This document shows positions 1,601 to 41,400 of a stretch of DNA of 64,000 bases, one piece after another. The stretch is taken from the NCBI GenBank assembly GCA_943736015.1, contig OX031061.1, positions 55,868,192-55,932,191 on the forward strand, written 5' to 3'. The notes beneath the pieces are model-generated. The model was not told where the DNA came from. It searched no databases and saw only the letters and a program-made list of their open reading frames with translations. How positions within the stretch are numbered: position 1 is the stretch's first letter; each line of letters begins with the position of its first letter. The position numbers were made by a program, and so were the translations under genes. The stretch is from Tridacna crocea. Lineage: Eukaryota > Mollusca > Bivalvia > Cardiida > Cardiidae.

Positions 1601-1931
1601 GGTGACTGGTATTTTATTCTTTTCTCTCAATGTTTTCTACCTGAAACCCTTTGATTTGAGCTGCAACCTTGCATTTATTTTGTTGTCTGCTTATGTTTCT
1701 TCTTTGACCCAGTCTGATTTTTCTTTAATTGGTCAAAGGTTACTCATTCAATCTTGAGACAAATCTGCAACTGACAATTTTGAAATATCAGTATCAAATG
1801 AGCACTATCATCAATCAAAATTTGATACAAGAATATAGGAAAAAAACATAAATGCTAAAATAATAAAACTTGCTCATTTGTTACAAACAATTTCTTCTTT
1901 AGCCATTTCATCTTTAACAACTCTGAATTTA

Positions 1932-2186
1932 TTAACACACAATCCCTACTTTTGACGACCCTGAAAAAGAAGCCTCTAGAAAACATTGTGGGAAAAAGAG
2001 AAAATGATGGTAACCTGCATTTTCTCCTTTTCCCACATGTTTTCTTACCAGCATTTTCTCCTTTTCCCACAATGTTTTCTACCCTTTGCAAAACAGATTT
2101 CAAATTTTCAGTCACTTTTACTTTGTCATCTGCAAATACTTACAATTCGGACAAGCCTAAAATATTGTCCTTAGGTAATGAGTTAA
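1932..2186 (+). mobile_element. Type A MITE with extra half core
   Basis: Reference for the common type. It runs from TTAA to TTAA with CACACAATCCCTACTTTTGA in the short arm, and GTCATCTGCAAATACTT with AAAATATTGTC in the long arm. I call a copy plus when the short (CACAATCC) arm is on the left. Here the distal half of the core palindrome is duplicated. Confidence 0.88.
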
Positions 2187-2315: not shown

Positions 2316-2408
2316 TCAATTCATCCACTTTCTACAGTTCCAGGCACCACAAGCACATGGGATCTTGTTGGCTTTGTCTTCTTCATCAAAATGATAGTCA
2401 TAGCATAA
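2316..2408 (-). CDS. KMT2C/D-like: KMT2C/D last exon, distal duplicate (alternative C-terminus)
   Basis: Encodes [20 protein letters not shown] and [10 protein letters not shown], then TGA (2316-2318). It is the same length (93 bp) and phase as the proximal exon, with its own acceptor (CTGTTTTGCAG, 2409-2419). Aligned codon by codon, 22 of 30 residues are identical and nine further codons differ only silently. The YDY tyrosines and all CxCx4C zinc ligands are kept; changes fall at T/C, Q/H, F/E, D/K, Q/A, H/N, N/A and H/W. Could be an alternative terminal exon, or less likely a decaying duplicate; use in mRNA is not shown by DNA alone. Confidence 0.85.
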   Translation of the reverse strand, partial: LCYDYHFDEEDKANKIPCACGAWNCRKWMN

Positions 2409-5400
2409 CTGCAAAACAGATTTACCAAATCCCAAAACATAATTAGCCATCATGTTAAGTGCAAGCAAACATAAGAACAAAACAATCTTTTAAGTATTTA
2501 GTTATTTAATTATCAGGAAAAATAGCAAATACTTTGCAATAGCCACTATTCGGATTTTACTACTGGCTTGAATGTTTTATCCAACTTATTTGGCAGCTTA
2601 ACTCATTACCAAATGACAAGATTTTAGACTGGCCCAATATGAAAGCATTTGCAGACGACAAAATAAGAGTAATCAAAAATTTGAAATTTCTTTTGAGAAG
2701 GGAAGAAAACATTGTGGGAAAAGGAGAAAATGCTGGTTACCAGCATTTTCTCCTTTTCCCACAATGTTTTCAGAAGCCTTCTTTCTCAAGGTCGTCAAAA
2801 GTAGAGACTGAGTGGTAATGGGTTAAGGGTTAAAATCTTATGATATCAGTAAATGTGAAAACATTGTGGCAAAAAAGAAAATTGTTTATTGAAAACAACA
2901 TCTCCTTTTACCACAAACATTTACATACACATGAAACCATAAGTATTATCCACAAAAAAAAAAAAATTCAAAATCATCTGGTGTAAATTTGTTTTATGTG
3001 GGAATGCAGTAACTGGCAACATGCCAAGGATAAAAGTTCTTATAAAATTGAACACCTTACTCAAAGATTAAACAAAATGTTTAAAAACAAAAAAATATGT
3101 TGACATTAAAACAAATCACTTTTTCAAACCAAAATCAAACAAGAAACAACAATAAATAATAAAAGTGGAAAATTCTGTTGGTTGACGAGTACATCTCCAT
3201 GATGACTTAGGCATCATGGGACTGGACTCCAAACCGTGATCTGATGTCCTTCCTGTTGGAGGGTATTCTGGGAAATATGTAATGACTACATCATCAATTC
3301 CAGTGCCCAATCCACATGAAGTTTGTATGAAGTCAAGGGGATGACGGAAAACACATGTTGTTAATATGGCAACCATGGAAGGGTTGGGAAGGGTAAATTT
3401 GTGAGAGATTTCGGATTTAGTTCATCCATTTTCGACAGTTATGAGCCCCACAGTTGCAGGGGATCTTGTGTTGATCGTCTTCAAAGTCAAACTGATAGTC
3501 ATAAGTTAGCTGTAATTACAAGAAATAGGTCAAGTATCAACCTAATTTCTCACAGATTTAAGACTTATTTCATGCATCCAGATGTATCAAGAAATAAAAG
3601 TGAAATATTGTTCAATATTTCATGGTTATGACCAGTGAAAAATACCAATTTATTTTTTTTAACTCTTCACTTGTGCTACTTGTGAAAATATTATCAATGA
3701 TTTTTGCTTAATGAAATAATTTCAATCTGTCACCAAAAAAATATCCTCTATAATTATATCTTCATTACTTTCAAGACTAGATTTATTTTAATACTGTGAT
3801 GGCTGCTAGCTAGATACCACCTACTTCAACTCTTTACCACACAATCCCGACTTGTAACGACTCTGAGAAAGAGGTCTTCTGAAAACATATTCAGAGAATT
3901 TACAGATTACAATTAAAATGAGTTTCAATGGATACTATCTGTCTTTGAATGGGTAGAAAACACTGTGGGAAAAGGAGAAAATGCTGGTTACCAGCATTTT
4001 CTCCTTTTTCCACCATGTTTTCAAACAGTTTCTTGCTGAGGATCTTTAAACACAGGATTGTGTAGGGCTTAACCGATATTACAATAACTTATATTGGTAT
4101 TGACCTAAGGGACAGAGAATAGTTTTCTTTTACAGAATACTTGATGCAGAACTCAAGACCTGATCAAATTTTGAATACAATGTCTACCTTTTACTTGCTG
4201 CTTTAAAAATACATTATAGCCAAAGACTCATGGGCAATATAGGGTTTGTGAGTGGATAGAGATTTGTGCATAGTACAGTTTAAGGAAAAGCAGAAAAACA
4301 TGCATAAACAAAGCTCCAGATAAGAGGAAGTGATGGCTTTCTAAATCCATTATTTCTCCTCCAAACCCTATGTTGTGGGTGCTCATTAGCATCATCTCCA
4401 TGAGACGATTCTAGTGAACACCCACAACATAGGGTTTAGTGGATAATAATAAATATTTTCAATTATGAAATCAAAAATCACTCCCTCTATCTGGAGCTCT
4501 GCATAAATACCCTGGCTGCCAAAATATAACCAAATCAATATCAGTAATCAGTGATAAATAAATAAACAGTTTTCCTGAATTATGCTCATCCCTACCACTG
4601 ACACTGGCACAACTATACACACCTCTTCTCCTTTTTGGATCCTGCGGTTGGTAATGATGATGATCTTACTCTCCTTGTCTATCTCCACTACTTCTGCCAC
4701 ACAGTTTGGATCACAGGAATGATTGATATACCTTGCTGGCCCTCCTGCCATGGTTGCATCAACTACTGTGTCGTTGTCGATACGGAACATGTACACACCA
4801 CGATTCTAAAACAGACAAATGAGGCTTTGATAGTTAACTCTTTACCAAACGACAAAATTATAGACTGGTTCAAATTAAAAGCATTTGCAGATGACAAAAT
4901 AATTGTCACTGAAAAATTGAAATTTGGTTTTGGAAGGGTAGAAAGCATTGTGGGAAAAGTAGAAAATGGTGCTTACCAGCATTTTCTCCTTTTCTCACTA
5001 CGTTTTCAAAAAGCTTCTTTCTCAGGGTCGTTAACAGTCGGGATTGTGTGGTAAAGAGTTAACCCTTTCCCAAACGACAAATTTTCGACTCTTCCAAACT
5101 CAATGAGTTTCCTGATGACAATTTCAAATTTGATAAAAATGGCAGAAAGTTCTCCAAATGGGTAGAAAACACTGAGGGAAAAGGAGAAATTGCTTGTTAC
5201 GAGCAATTTCTCCTTTTCCCACAGTGTTTTCAAAAGACTTGTACTGCAGACACATAAAAACAAGGGCTTATGTGGTAAAGAGTTAATCTCTGTCCTAACA
5301 TCTGTGAACATGACTGTTTTTTTTTTTGACGAAAGATCTTGTTCTCTAAGTCTAGCCTAGCCCAAGTAGTACAGTCTGTGGCATACAAGACTCAAGAACT

Positions 5401-8400
5401 GGGGGTCACGAGTTCAATCCTTGGCTCGGGAAATTTCTAACAAAGGATTGATGAGTCAAAGCAAAAAGGTTCATTCCTCTCTCACCACTGATCATTGTTT
5501 CAATGATGGCTATGTGGGAAAGCAGCCAGTGGCTTGGAAAGAATATTGTGTGGGATACATGTAAAAGAAACTCCAGGAAAGCATTATAGGGTGCACTGGC
5601 CACCATGATATAACTGAATTAATGTTGAAAAAGGTATTGAGACCAGACAATCAATCACTTAATCTAGAAGTAGGACTCAGAGTCAGCATGTAATTACAGG
5701 CTGTATTCACCAACCATTTTTATTTAATTTCTATAGCTAAATTCACATCAATTACCTTTACAAACCCGAACAGAACTATCACCATGTCCTGTATACCTGA
5801 ACAACTTTTGTCTGTTGCTGTTGAAGACGTCTTAGATCATTGTGACAAAATGGACAATGCTCGTTACAAGAAATTTTTCCTTTTGCCAAAATGTTTTCAA
5901 AGGCAATCTAACATAAGAAAGAAAGAGTATTCTAAAATTAACCCATTACCACACAATCCCTACTTTTGACGACCCTGAGAAAGAAGTCTTGAGAAAACAT
6001 TGTGGGAAAAGGAGAAAATGCTGGTAACCAGCATTTTCTCCTTTTCCCACAATGTTTTCTACCCTTCACAAAACAAATTTAAAATTTTCAGTCACTTTTA
6101 TTCTGTTGTCTGCAAATGCTTTTGATTTGGACAAGCCTAAAATATTGTCATTTGATAATGAGGTAACAACTGTATACAAAACAATGCCTTGTGTTAAAAA
6201 CCCAAGGAAAACAAGGCTTTACAGCACAATGTTGGAAAAGGAAAAAATACAAGTGACCAGCAATTCACTTTTCCAACGATGTTTTCTACACTTCCACAGG
6301 TAAATTAAATCATTTCATTCGGTCAGTTTTCGTTTTCGGCAATATTCTCAGTTAGGATCAGTCTAGTATTTTGTCAGCAGATAAAATAATGGGAGAGTTC
6401 ATCACTCACCTGGTCTTCGTAGATCTTTTCCCTGTGATTGGCCACTTCATTTCTGATCAAATCTCCAATATATTCTATCACCATGGTATGCATCTCCAGG
6501 TCTTTGGCAGCATACAAACCTAAACCCTGTAAAGTTAGACTAGACATATAGAGAGCAGGCATATCTCTAAATTGATTATTTAATCAAAATAGATTTCATT
6601 TATGTGGAAAAAAGATGCAAACATTGTAATTTCATGACTGTTTTGACTACAGTCAAAAATCAAAGTTTAGATATCAAATTCTAGGATCAGACATTCTCAG
6701 ACACAAGATCACAACAAAAAGCCCAACAGTCCTTTTCGATGACTGTTATGTTGACCCAATTCTACAGGTACATCATCAACTAATGCTTACTTCACTCCTT
6801 TAGCTTTACTAGTTGATCCTAAAATACACAATCCTTACTTTTAACTCATTACCAAACAACAAAATTTTAGGTTTGTCCAAGTCGAAAGCATTTGCAGACA
6901 ACAAAATAAAAGTGACTGAAAATTTGAAATTTGTTTTGTGAAGGGTAAACATTGTGGGAAAAGGAGAAAATGCTGGTTACCAGCATTTTCCTCCCTTTCC
7001 CACAATATTTTCTAAAGGCTTCCTTCTCAAGGTTGTCAAAAGCAGGGACTGTGTGGTAATGGGTTAACTCTCGACCAAATGACAAAATTTTAAACTGGTC
7101 CAAATTCAGGGCATATGCAAATGAAAATTCAAATCTGGTTCAAATAATGGAATTTGTTCTTAATGGGGTAAAAAACACAGTGGGAAAAGGAGACAATGCT
7201 AGTTAACAGCATTTTTCCTTTTCCGACGATTTTTTCAAAAGTCTTCTTTGTTAAGGTTGTTAAAACTAGTGATTTTGTGGCAAACAGCAGAAAACCTCGC
7301 AGCTAACAACTTCCTAAAATAATCTGTGAAAAAAGATAATTGCAGTTTATTAGCATATTTTTCCTCCATTTCCCGCCATGTCCTCCATCCTGTTGGGGAC
7401 AAACACCATGATCTGGGCCAGATTTAATTTGTTGTCTGCAAATGCTATCAATTTAGATTAAGTCTGAAATTTTGTCATCTGGCTAAGGCTTGATAAACTA
7501 GAGCTGTCACTAAATGTGACTTAATACCCCCGCCAGCACTTTGACAGGAAAAAAGTGTCAATTTCGAGGGGAGATAATTCCTCAACCAAGAAGAGCTGAC
7601 ACTTGAAAATTGTGTCTTGCAAATCTTCAATATATGACAGTATATGTGCAAAGTTTCAATACAATTGAAGGAAAACTGAAGGACGAGTTCGTGACACAAA
7701 ATTACTAGTATTTTGTACACAGACACATGGACAGACAGACGGACGGACACATGCACAGACGGGCTGATTCCAGCATATCCCCGAAAATATTCGTTTTGCG
7801 GGTGTATAAATATTTATTCTACATACCTGAATCCTGGACCTGCCAAGATAGACTAGATTCTTCCATTCTGTCTTTAAACGTCTGTATTGCTGTGATTTGG
7901 AATGAACAAAATGTTTCATGTATGGGGAGTTAAGGTCTCCCGTTAGACCAGTGACTGTGGACGGCAAAGAATGAGTGCTGCTGGATTGTAGAGTATGAGG
8001 CCTGAAACAGCACAATTAAAGGTAAATATAACAGGTTGATCATTTTAAGTTTTCTTTGTAAGATTTATGCAAACTATACCATTTGTTTAGCCATGACTTT
8101 AACCCTTTTATCACACAATCCCATCTTTTGACGATCCTGGGGAAAAAAACATTTTCTTTTCCAACAATGTTTTTTTCTACCCTTTCAAAAAACAAATTAT
8201 AATTTTTGAGCCACATTTAATTATCATCTCAAAATACTTTCAATTTGGACCAGTCTAAAATTTTGCCATTTGGAAAAGAGTTACCATACAGTAACCTTTA
8301 CCTTAATCAATAAAATACACAGATATATTCAAAAGGACATCACTGAAATAATGTAATTTAAAGGCTTGTTTTACCAAATAAAAATCTACTGAAGTTAAAC

Positions 8401-38400: not shown

Positions 38401-41400
38401 CTTGAGGTAAATTTTGCCCAGGGTACCTTTGGATGGGCCCAAAGTGTTGTGGTTTCGGAATTTCAGTTAACTGAACTTGCACAGAAGAGTTTGCTTGAGA
38501 CGCAGGTGTTACAACTGCAGATTCCGATAATACACCTGTTGCTGATGTAGACAAAGAAGCATTAGCATTACTGGATACTGAAATAGTGTCCGCTACATTC
38601 GATTCTGGTGCATCAGTTTGTTTCTCAGATTCCTGTTTAATTATTTTAAGTTTTGTTACATCATTTGCCTGTTCTTGACTGCTCATTTCTGCTTCAGGCT
38701 TAAGGTTGTAATCTGGTCTTTGTGAACTTTCCTGTGTAAAAAGCTGATGACCAACACCGTTCCCATTATTTTCCAACTTAATTTCTTTTGGAATACTGCC
38801 AAGTTTGGCACTGGAAACTTGTGGAGAAGGGGTAATACCACTGGTGGACGTATTTAGAGAATTGCGTGACTCCATGGAATCTTTATCTGAAGAGGAAGAC
38901 ATTGTATCAGGACAAGGCTTTGGGCCAGTACAGGTATCTTGAGATGTTTTTGTTTCTTTAGAGGGAGAAGGTGTTTTCTTTTGAAAAGGAAGAGAAAAGG
39001 CACTCTCTACTGATGGAGAGATTGTCACATTGGAAGGTGTTATGGATGACACCTCAACTGCACTGTCTAACAGAGTGTCCCTTTCAGATAACTGTGGTTT
39101 TTGTATCACATTTGAAGAAAATTGAGCAATATTCACATATTGATGATCTGCCTGTATTGCTAACTGTTGAGGTGATAATAATTTTGATTCTACTGTTTTA
39201 TTACTATAACACTCTGGAACAATACTTGCATCTGGGATTACGTTTGCTTCAGGTTTCTGGTCTGTATCCGTTTCCATATTATGAGTTCTCAAGGATGGTG
39301 AACATTCTTTATCAAAGGACTGGGGTGAAGGAGTACTACCAAGATGACCTTCCCCTAAATCCTCCTTGTTATTCTCAGCTGGGCCTGCAGCTAGCCGATT
39401 TAAAGATTCAGAGTTACCACTTCCTGAACTACCAGCTTTATTTTCATTCACATTTTCCTGGACAGGAACCATTTCAGAGTGTTTATTATCTGAAGACTCT
39501 CCTTCTGGTGGTGGAGTACCACAGTGTAACCCATCTGTGCATTCATTTTGAGTAGTTCTTTGTTGTAAACCATCCCTACAGTCTGCTGGTGGAGGTGTTC
39601 CACAGTGTGTCCCATCAGTACATTCACCTGGGGGTGGAGTCCCACAATTCCTCCCATCATTGCATCTGTCTGGTGGTGGGGTTCCACAGTGTGTCCCATC
39701 AGTACATTCACCTGGTGGGGGAGTACCACAGTGAATTCCATCTGTACATTCACCTGCTGGGGCAGTTCCAGAGGGTAATCCATCAGTGCTTTCTCCTGGA
39801 GGTGGAGTACCACAGTGTATCCCATCTGTGCATTCTCCTGGTGGTGGAGTTCCACAGTGTTTGCCATCTTGACATTCTCCTGGTGGAGGAGTGCCACAGT
39901 GTATCCCATCTGTGCATTCTCCTGGTGGTGGAGTTCCACAGTGTATCCCATCTGTGCATTCTCCTGGTGGTGGAGTTCCACAGTGTTTGCCATCTTGACA
40001 TTCTCCTGGTGGAGGAGTGCCACAGTGTATCCCATCTGTGCATTCACCTGGTGGTGGAGTTCCACAGTGTATCCCATCGGTGCATTCTCCTGGTGGTGGA
40101 GTTCCACAGTGTATGCCATCTGAACACTCTCCTGGTGGTGGAGTTCCACAGTGTATCCCATCGGTGCATTCTCCTGGTGGTGGAGTCCCACAGTGTATCC
40201 CATCTGAACACTCTCCTGGTGGTGGAGTGCCACAGTGTATCCCATCGGTGCATTCTCCTGGTGGTGGAGTCCCACAGTGTATCCCATCGGTGCATTCTCC
40301 TGGTGGTGGAGTGCCACAGTGTATCCCATCGGTGCATTCTCCTGGTGGTGGAGTCCCACAGTGTATCCCATCGGTGCATTCTCCTGGTGGTGGAGTGCCA
40401 CAGTGTTTGCCATCTGAACACTCTCCTGGTGGTGGAGTGCCACAGTGTATCCCATCTGCACACTCTCCTGGTGGTGGAGTGCCACAGTGTATCCCATCTG
40501 CACACTCTCCTGGTGGTGGAGTGCCACAGTGTTTCCCATCTGCACACTCTCCTGGTGGTGGAGTGCCACAGTGTTTCCCATCTGTACATTCTGGTGGTGG
40601 AGTGCCACAGTGTGTTTTATCCTTACATTCCCCTGAAGAAGGTAATTTACTTTGTCCCATATCTTCTATCTGACTTTCCTCATCAGTTTGAGCATTTTGT
40701 GATAAGCTTGATTGTTCATTAATTCTTTCTTTGTCAAATTCATTTGATGATGAACCCTGTTTTTTTCCAGGTACTGTTTGCTCCAAACCTTCATTATCTG
40801 TTGAACCCTTTTCTTCAATGTTTGACTCTGTCAAAGGTGCACCTGTTGCTTCTCCCTCCAAGTGGTCAATGCCCTTAACTTTCAATTCTGTTGTAGTATT
40901 TCCTGAGTCTTTATTGATTCTCTGAGAATTCTCCCTTTTAATGGTAAGTGTTGATGATGTGCTAACCCCTGATGTGGAAATAGCTAATGACTCTGGCAAA
41001 GGTTCAGGATCTGAAACATGTGTTTGCCCTGATAATGGTAAAGTTCCATGAATGTGGCTGGAATGTATGCCTTGGCTGTGTATCCCATGCTGCATCTGTA
41101 GTGTATTTTCTGGTCCTGGATATCTTGTTCGAGGCATGCCCATCCTAACCAAGGTATTAATACCAGGCCCAGCTGGTCTTGGTGAACGTCTTGCTGACAA
41201 ATTATTGGCTGATGTTGTACCAGGGGCCATCCAATGAGGTGAAACAGGTGGTCTTTGAATTGCATGACCTTGTAAAGGATCAAAATGTGGAAAACCCTGA
41301 AGATGCTGCTGCATTTGAGTAACCATATCTGGACGAATGTGACGTAAGTGGCCAGGAAAACCAACTGAAGGTCTAGGATGCCCTGGAAAACGGCCAGACT

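Follow-up and report, generated by a model that had tools for sequence, protein, structure and literature searches.

At its 3' end, the KMT2C/D gene of Tridacna crocea carries two homologous, in-phase copies of its last coding exon, the farther of which is best read, with good confidence on our part, as a constrained alternative last exon. The window analysed here is a 64,000-nt stretch (C6:55,868,192-55,932,191) of a 1.05-Gb genome assembled into 31 contigs, and its minus strand holds the 3' end of the gene (Table 1). KMT2C and KMT2D are also known as MLL3 and MLL4, and the fly gene is trr.

Gene context and the shared SET exon

Eight open frames of the window were submitted to Pfam, revealing domain matches in three (extended PHD, FYRC/FYRN and SET) and none in the remaining five. 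The PHD, FYRN/FYRC and SET frames probably belong to one transcript. The SET exon ends in AAA GGA GAA GAG (KGEE), followed by the donor gtgtgt, with a full codon at the junction; it also encodes the fourth zinc cysteine (NHSC) and is common to both proposed isoforms. When the SET exon was joined to the distal exon and compared with PDB sequences, KMT2D and KMT2C were the best matches (E from 5.8e-46 to 1.6e-44), followed by KMT2A (from 1.1e-32), KMT2B (6.8e-31) and Set1 (from 3e-26); for the human KMT2C SET domain, 5F59 and 5F6K are available as structures. The assignment to KMT2C/D made in the first-pass annotation of this DNA is borne out both by this ranking, in which the SET domain is closer to KMT2C/D than to KMT2A/B or SET1, and by the FYRN/FYRC and extended PHD frames, which lie upstream of the SET exon on the same strand.

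Table 1 Features at the 3' end of the T. crocea KMT2C/D gene, in window coordinates
Feature	Position	Strand	Evidence
Extended PHD (zf-HC5HC2H_2)	15830-15447	-	Pfam E=1.4e-14
FYRC and part of FYRN	10120-9728	-	Pfam E=4e-15 (FYRC), E=8.5e-9 (FYRN)
SET open frame	4805-4551	-	Pfam SET E=1.4e-15
SET exon (much of the SET domain, NRGVYMF...IQKGEE, 61 codons)	4805-4623	-	Sequence, Pfam and PDB matches
Proximal terminal exon (30 residues and stop)	3509-3417	-	93 nt, phase 0; acceptor ...TAATTACAG
AATAAA followed by a T-rich run, candidate proximal-isoform poly(A) signal	2885-2890	-	Hexamer match only
Distal terminal exon (30 residues and stop)	2408-2316	-	93 nt, phase 0; acceptor ...CTGTTTTGCAG
First AATAAA past the distal stop, candidate distal-isoform poly(A) signal	1928-1933	-	Hexamer match only

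Two homologous terminal exons

The KGEE frame is continued by the proximal and distal exons alike, both of which follow an AG acceptor, and the two agree in phase and in length (the stop being included in the 93 nt), as mutually exclusive homologous terminal exons do. Codon by codon, 13 of 30 are identical, nine differ silently and eight are replaced, for a residue identity of 22/30, and the exons end in different stop codons (TAA in the proximal, TGA in the distal). From proximal to distal, the replacements are T to C at exon position 2, Q to H at 6, F to E at 9, DQH to KAN at 12-14, N to A at 19 and H to W at 23, while the zinc cysteines (C18, C20 and C25) and the tyrosines of the YDY motif (Y3 and Y5) are the same in both. 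These results confirm the first-pass description of two 93-nt phase-0 exons after KGEE, both with a good acceptor and coding for 30 residues before the stop, and with zinc ligands and YDY retained; its tally of replaced, silent and identical codons proved exact on recount.

Among the matches listed in a motif-filtered and repeat-swamped comparison of the window with itself, the exon pair scored E = 1.7e-13, a resemblance far above chance. The proximal exon is the canonical copy, with 28/30 residues identical to human KMT2D and 26/30 to KMT2C; the distal exon is identical to each of the two at 23/30.

Age of the duplication and constraint on the distal copy

Ungapped similarity between the two copies extends over 95 nt at 71% identity, starting six bases within the acceptor and running through the final sense codon. 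Because the copies resemble each other only in the exon and the final acceptor bases, the duplication is old. Beyond the exons, the flanks have only a common repeat and short matches of at most 25 nt in common, which disfavours a recent segmental duplication. The comparison of replacement and silent rates that had been proposed in the first pass gave a dN of about 0.25 (0.25 by NG86, 0.24 by maximum likelihood (ML)) with saturated silent sites, dS being undefined by NG86 and unbounded by ML, where it runs to 33.

We used two simulations with a joint target of at least 22 identical residues and at least nine silent differences. In the first, the proximal exon evolved at an omega of 0.05 and the distal exon was unselected (20,000 runs at each of nine divergences); as rough figures, given that the simulations start from the present-day proximal sequence and use a simple mutation scheme, the target was reached in at most 0.29% of runs (at a divergence of 0.20), in 0.11% when frame and stop also had to be intact, and in none at a divergence of 0.05 or of at least 0.40. 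In the second (4,000 runs at each of four divergences), the best rates, which are rough for the same reason, were 0.32% without selection, 4.9% at an omega of 0.5, and 32%, 39%, 61% and 80% at omegas of 0.20, 0.15, 0.10 and 0.05, respectively. Absence of selection on the distal exon is disfavoured by these results; strong selection fits them, and a moderate relaxation (omega 0.5) is compatible with the simulation.

Positions common to human KMT2A, KMT2C and KMT2D were all retained in the proximal exon (17/17) and in the distal exon (17/17). Of the 27 positions that agree between human KMT2C and KMT2D, the proximal exon kept 26 and the distal exon 22, departing at 9, 12, 13, 14 and 19, and the probability that five random departures among 27 would spare all 17 deep positions is 0.003. 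As judged from this alignment, the distal exon is kept where the family is kept and differs where KMT2 subfamilies differ. With five departures against one, constraint on the distal exon is therefore looser than on the proximal. The earlier proposal that the distal copy is constrained rather than visibly decaying is nonetheless upheld by the simulations, the deep positions and the intact frame and stop.

Splice and polyadenylation signals

The acceptor pyrimidine tract is richer in the proximal exon (14/20) than in the distal (10/20). When 3,868 AG sites were scored with a generic acceptor matrix, the proximal acceptor fell at the 96th percentile, that of the upstream SET exon at the 93rd and that of the distal exon at the 91st. 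The AATAAA at 2890 lies 527 nt past the proximal stop and ahead of the distal exon, and the one at 1933 lies 383 nt past the distal stop, with further ones at 1679 and 1618. Because AATAAA also occurs inside the last intron (3787 and 3654), these hexamers alone prove little. Since each exon has its own stop, inclusion of both would yield the proximal protein only. In the reading preferred here, both exons would be spliced and polyadenylated.

It is also conceivable, if unlikely, that the distal exon long served as an alternative, fell recently into disuse and is intact only because little time has passed. Its looser conservation and weaker acceptor would agree with such a history, as would the fact that its use is deduced from sequence, but frame, stop, phase, acceptor AG and all 17 deep positions are intact and there is no sign of decay. 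An exon still in use as a constrained alternative therefore remains the reading that we prefer.

The post-SET loop and possible effects on the enzyme

Counted from the chain end, exon position 1 corresponds to KMT2C residue 4882 and the exon to residues 4882-4911, a numbering that fits the zinc cysteines (C18, C20 and C25 as C4899, C4901 and C4906) and the tyrosines (Y3 and Y5 as Y4884 and Y4886). In a computational study, a post-SET loop at about 4889-4902 of KMT2C is described as linking SET-C to the zinc site and as fluctuating more in all variants computed (PMC10715303). The same computations are reported to show a main-chain bond of H4900 to SAH, a loss of contacts with the H3 peptide in Y4884C and lower SAH binding in F4890Y (PMC10715303). 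Of the eight residues that differ between the T. crocea exons, five (9, 12, 13, 14 and 19) fall within this loop, position 9 corresponding to F4890 and position 19 to H4900 of KMT2C. The post-SET segments of a KMT2A-like gene (C6:2,190,558) and a SET1-like gene (C15:26,494,792) of this genome are shorter by two residues within that loop.

The first-pass annotation had suggested that exchanging the exons could alter the product state or complex binding of the enzyme. In MLL1, a change of Y3942 to Phe is said to turn the isolated SET domain into a trimethyltransferase, and a proposal cited in the same article holds that Y3942 limits the methylation state of that isolated domain; the article's own result, as given there, is that mutation of Y3942 failed to support activity of the complex (PMC2990719). 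The MLL1 fragment described there ends at 3969, and Y3942 therefore corresponds to exon position 3. Because this tyrosine is present in both exons, a switch of product state through it is not expected. The earlier interpretation thus stands as regards two homologous, constrained, in-phase last exons that resemble alternative terminal exons, and is weakened as regards a product-state change by the known tyrosine switch. Most likely, the isoforms would differ in loop dynamics, in affinity for cofactor or H3 tail, or in complex activity, and not by a Phe/Tyr switch.

The position of these differences also bears on the idea that both exons are used with functionally neutral substitutions, and that what is gained is an alternative 3'UTR and poly(A) site, not another enzyme. 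Each exon would have its own 3'UTR and candidate AATAAA, and loop positions 9 and 12-14 also vary between human KMT2A and KMT2C/D. However, a change of 3'UTR alone should not need a duplicated coding exon, and the differences are concentrated in one loop, so we regard this explanation as quite improbable.

Origin of the second exon

We searched the whole genome with two queries. The distal peptide gave two matches at E <= 0.001, the distal exon itself and the proximal exon (four best candidates scored), while the SET exon with the proximal exon gave 17 at E <= 1 (21 best candidates scored), of which one was the KMT2C/D SET exon of the window gene and two were its post-SET exons. Neither search revealed a third KMT2C/D post-SET copy among the best candidates scored, which makes a strong but not absolute case that there are no further copies elsewhere in the genome. 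That the distal exon is an unconstrained duplicate, or a fragment retrocopied from elsewhere, is extremely improbable: it does lie within repeat-rich DNA, but an unselected copy reached the simulation target in at most about 0.3% of runs, no other source locus appeared among the candidates scored, and the KGEE codons that a spliced message would have left upstream are absent, with an AG acceptor in their place, so that the retrocopy origin raised in the first pass as a possible refutation finds no support in these checks.

The exon boundary has a counterpart in human genes. On chromosome 12, KMT2D c.16521 and c.16529 are tabulated at 49,022,043 and 49,021,865 (one printed with a stray comma) (PMC10715303), and 178 bp for 8 coding nt implies an intron of roughly 170 bp, located between codon E5507, at its final base, and codon Y5510. 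For human KMT2C, the same tabulation places an intron within c.14579-c.14651 (1,943 bp for 72 nt), and the post-SET boundary falls inside this interval (PMC10715303). Compared with human KMT2D as tabulated there, the T. crocea gene agrees in these residues and in the position of the intron, but it has the exon twice. With this boundary, duplication of the last exon would yield a complete in-frame alternative end.

By comparison, the KMT2A-like (C6:2.19 Mb) and SET1-like (C15:26.49 Mb) genes of this genome, labelled by resemblance, have no intron at the post-SET boundary. Each has one post-SET copy within 1.5 kb downstream, which led us to reject a duplicated post-SET segment as a general property of the KMT2 genes of this genome.

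Repeats and other loci

A near-palindromic repeat (core GAAAACATTGTGGGAAAAGGAGAAAATGCTGGTTACCAGCATTTTCTCC...) is abundant in the first 6.6 kb of the window, with 13 copies of a 60-nt core at an identity of at least 60% (for example, 1979-2038, 2705-2764, 3956-4015, 4941-5000, 5165-5224 and 5993-6052), some of which are embedded in longer units of roughly 230 nt. This intron repeat looks like a miniature inverted-repeat element. We considered whether two palindromic copies (3956-4022 and 2705-2771; 94% complementary) could loop out the proximal exon, and did not adopt the idea because each copy is itself near-palindromic and other members of the family are spread through the introns.

Two other observations concern loci apart from the terminal exons. 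SET-exon matches with the same aligned peptide occur about 49 kb apart on C7 (54,485,823 and 54,535,269); they carry what we take to be an EZH-like motif and may represent a tandem gene duplication or an assembly duplicate. At 39451-40719 in the window lies an array whose translations recur every dozen or so residues and which has several frames open on either strand, inside or overlapping a large open frame (41773-35516, minus strand).

Discussion

Our preferred reading, a constrained alternative last exon, would begin with an old tandem duplication of the final KMT2C/D exon, giving two homologous alternative terminal exons. By default, the donor after KGEE would be joined to the nearer exon, with its better acceptor and its own AATAAA, to give the proximal end; if that acceptor were skipped, the donor would be joined to the farther exon to give the distal end. 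The outcome would be two full-length enzymes differing in eight of their last 30 residues. The choice between the two exons may also be regulated, possibly under tissue control.

Mutually exclusive exons arising from tandem exon duplication were reportedly the subject of work by Kondrashov and Koonin in 2001. Swaps between homologous exons, including by way of alternative poly(A), are described as an established class (PMC4465641, PMC7561204), and tropomyosin, dynamin and alpha-actinin are among the genes listed with mutually exclusive homologous exons from tandem duplication (PMC4465641). As in the tropomyosin-type swaps described there, the T. crocea exons are adjacent, homologous and equal in phase and length, and splicing of one or the other would be expected (PMC4465641). 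The difference is that the swapped unit in KMT2C/D is the one with which a histone methyltransferase closes its active site; neither KMT2 nor methyltransferase occurs in the main text of PMC4465641.

Alternative splicing is described as altering histone methyltransferases in their catalytic or interaction domains (PMC1949830). In contrast to the exon pair reported here, the variants of epigenetic regulators described in that article remove or damage domains (MLL3 being listed for its PHD), and the available text contains no swap of one post-SET segment for another and does not use the term post-SET (PMC1949830). Planarians have two genes, trr-1 and trr-2 (PMC6128892), and a study of annelids took the longest isoform (PMC12153100); the available text of both mentions no alternative post-SET exon. 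Overall, the open-access literature searched, as far as its available text extends, describes no alternative last or post-SET exon of KMT2C/D, and an annotated isoform may exist in public genomes.

KMT2C and KMT2D carry out H3K4 monomethylation at enhancers and are often mutated in disease, as is generally known and described in PMC10067056. Four human variants in this exon appear in the tabulation of PMC10715303, all of uncertain significance. The interest of the exon pair lies in its location, the lid of the catalytic domain, and a natural swap of the post-SET loop would offer a ready-made pair of variants for probing loop function.

More tentatively, and at less than even confidence, a regulated splice switch may swap this catalytic lid, so that one gene gives two H3K4 methyltransferases with different post-SET loops. 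If so, the two enzymes would have different kinetics, cofactor affinity or partner dependence, and an invertebrate would diversify its KMT2C/D enzyme by splicing, where vertebrates use two genes instead.
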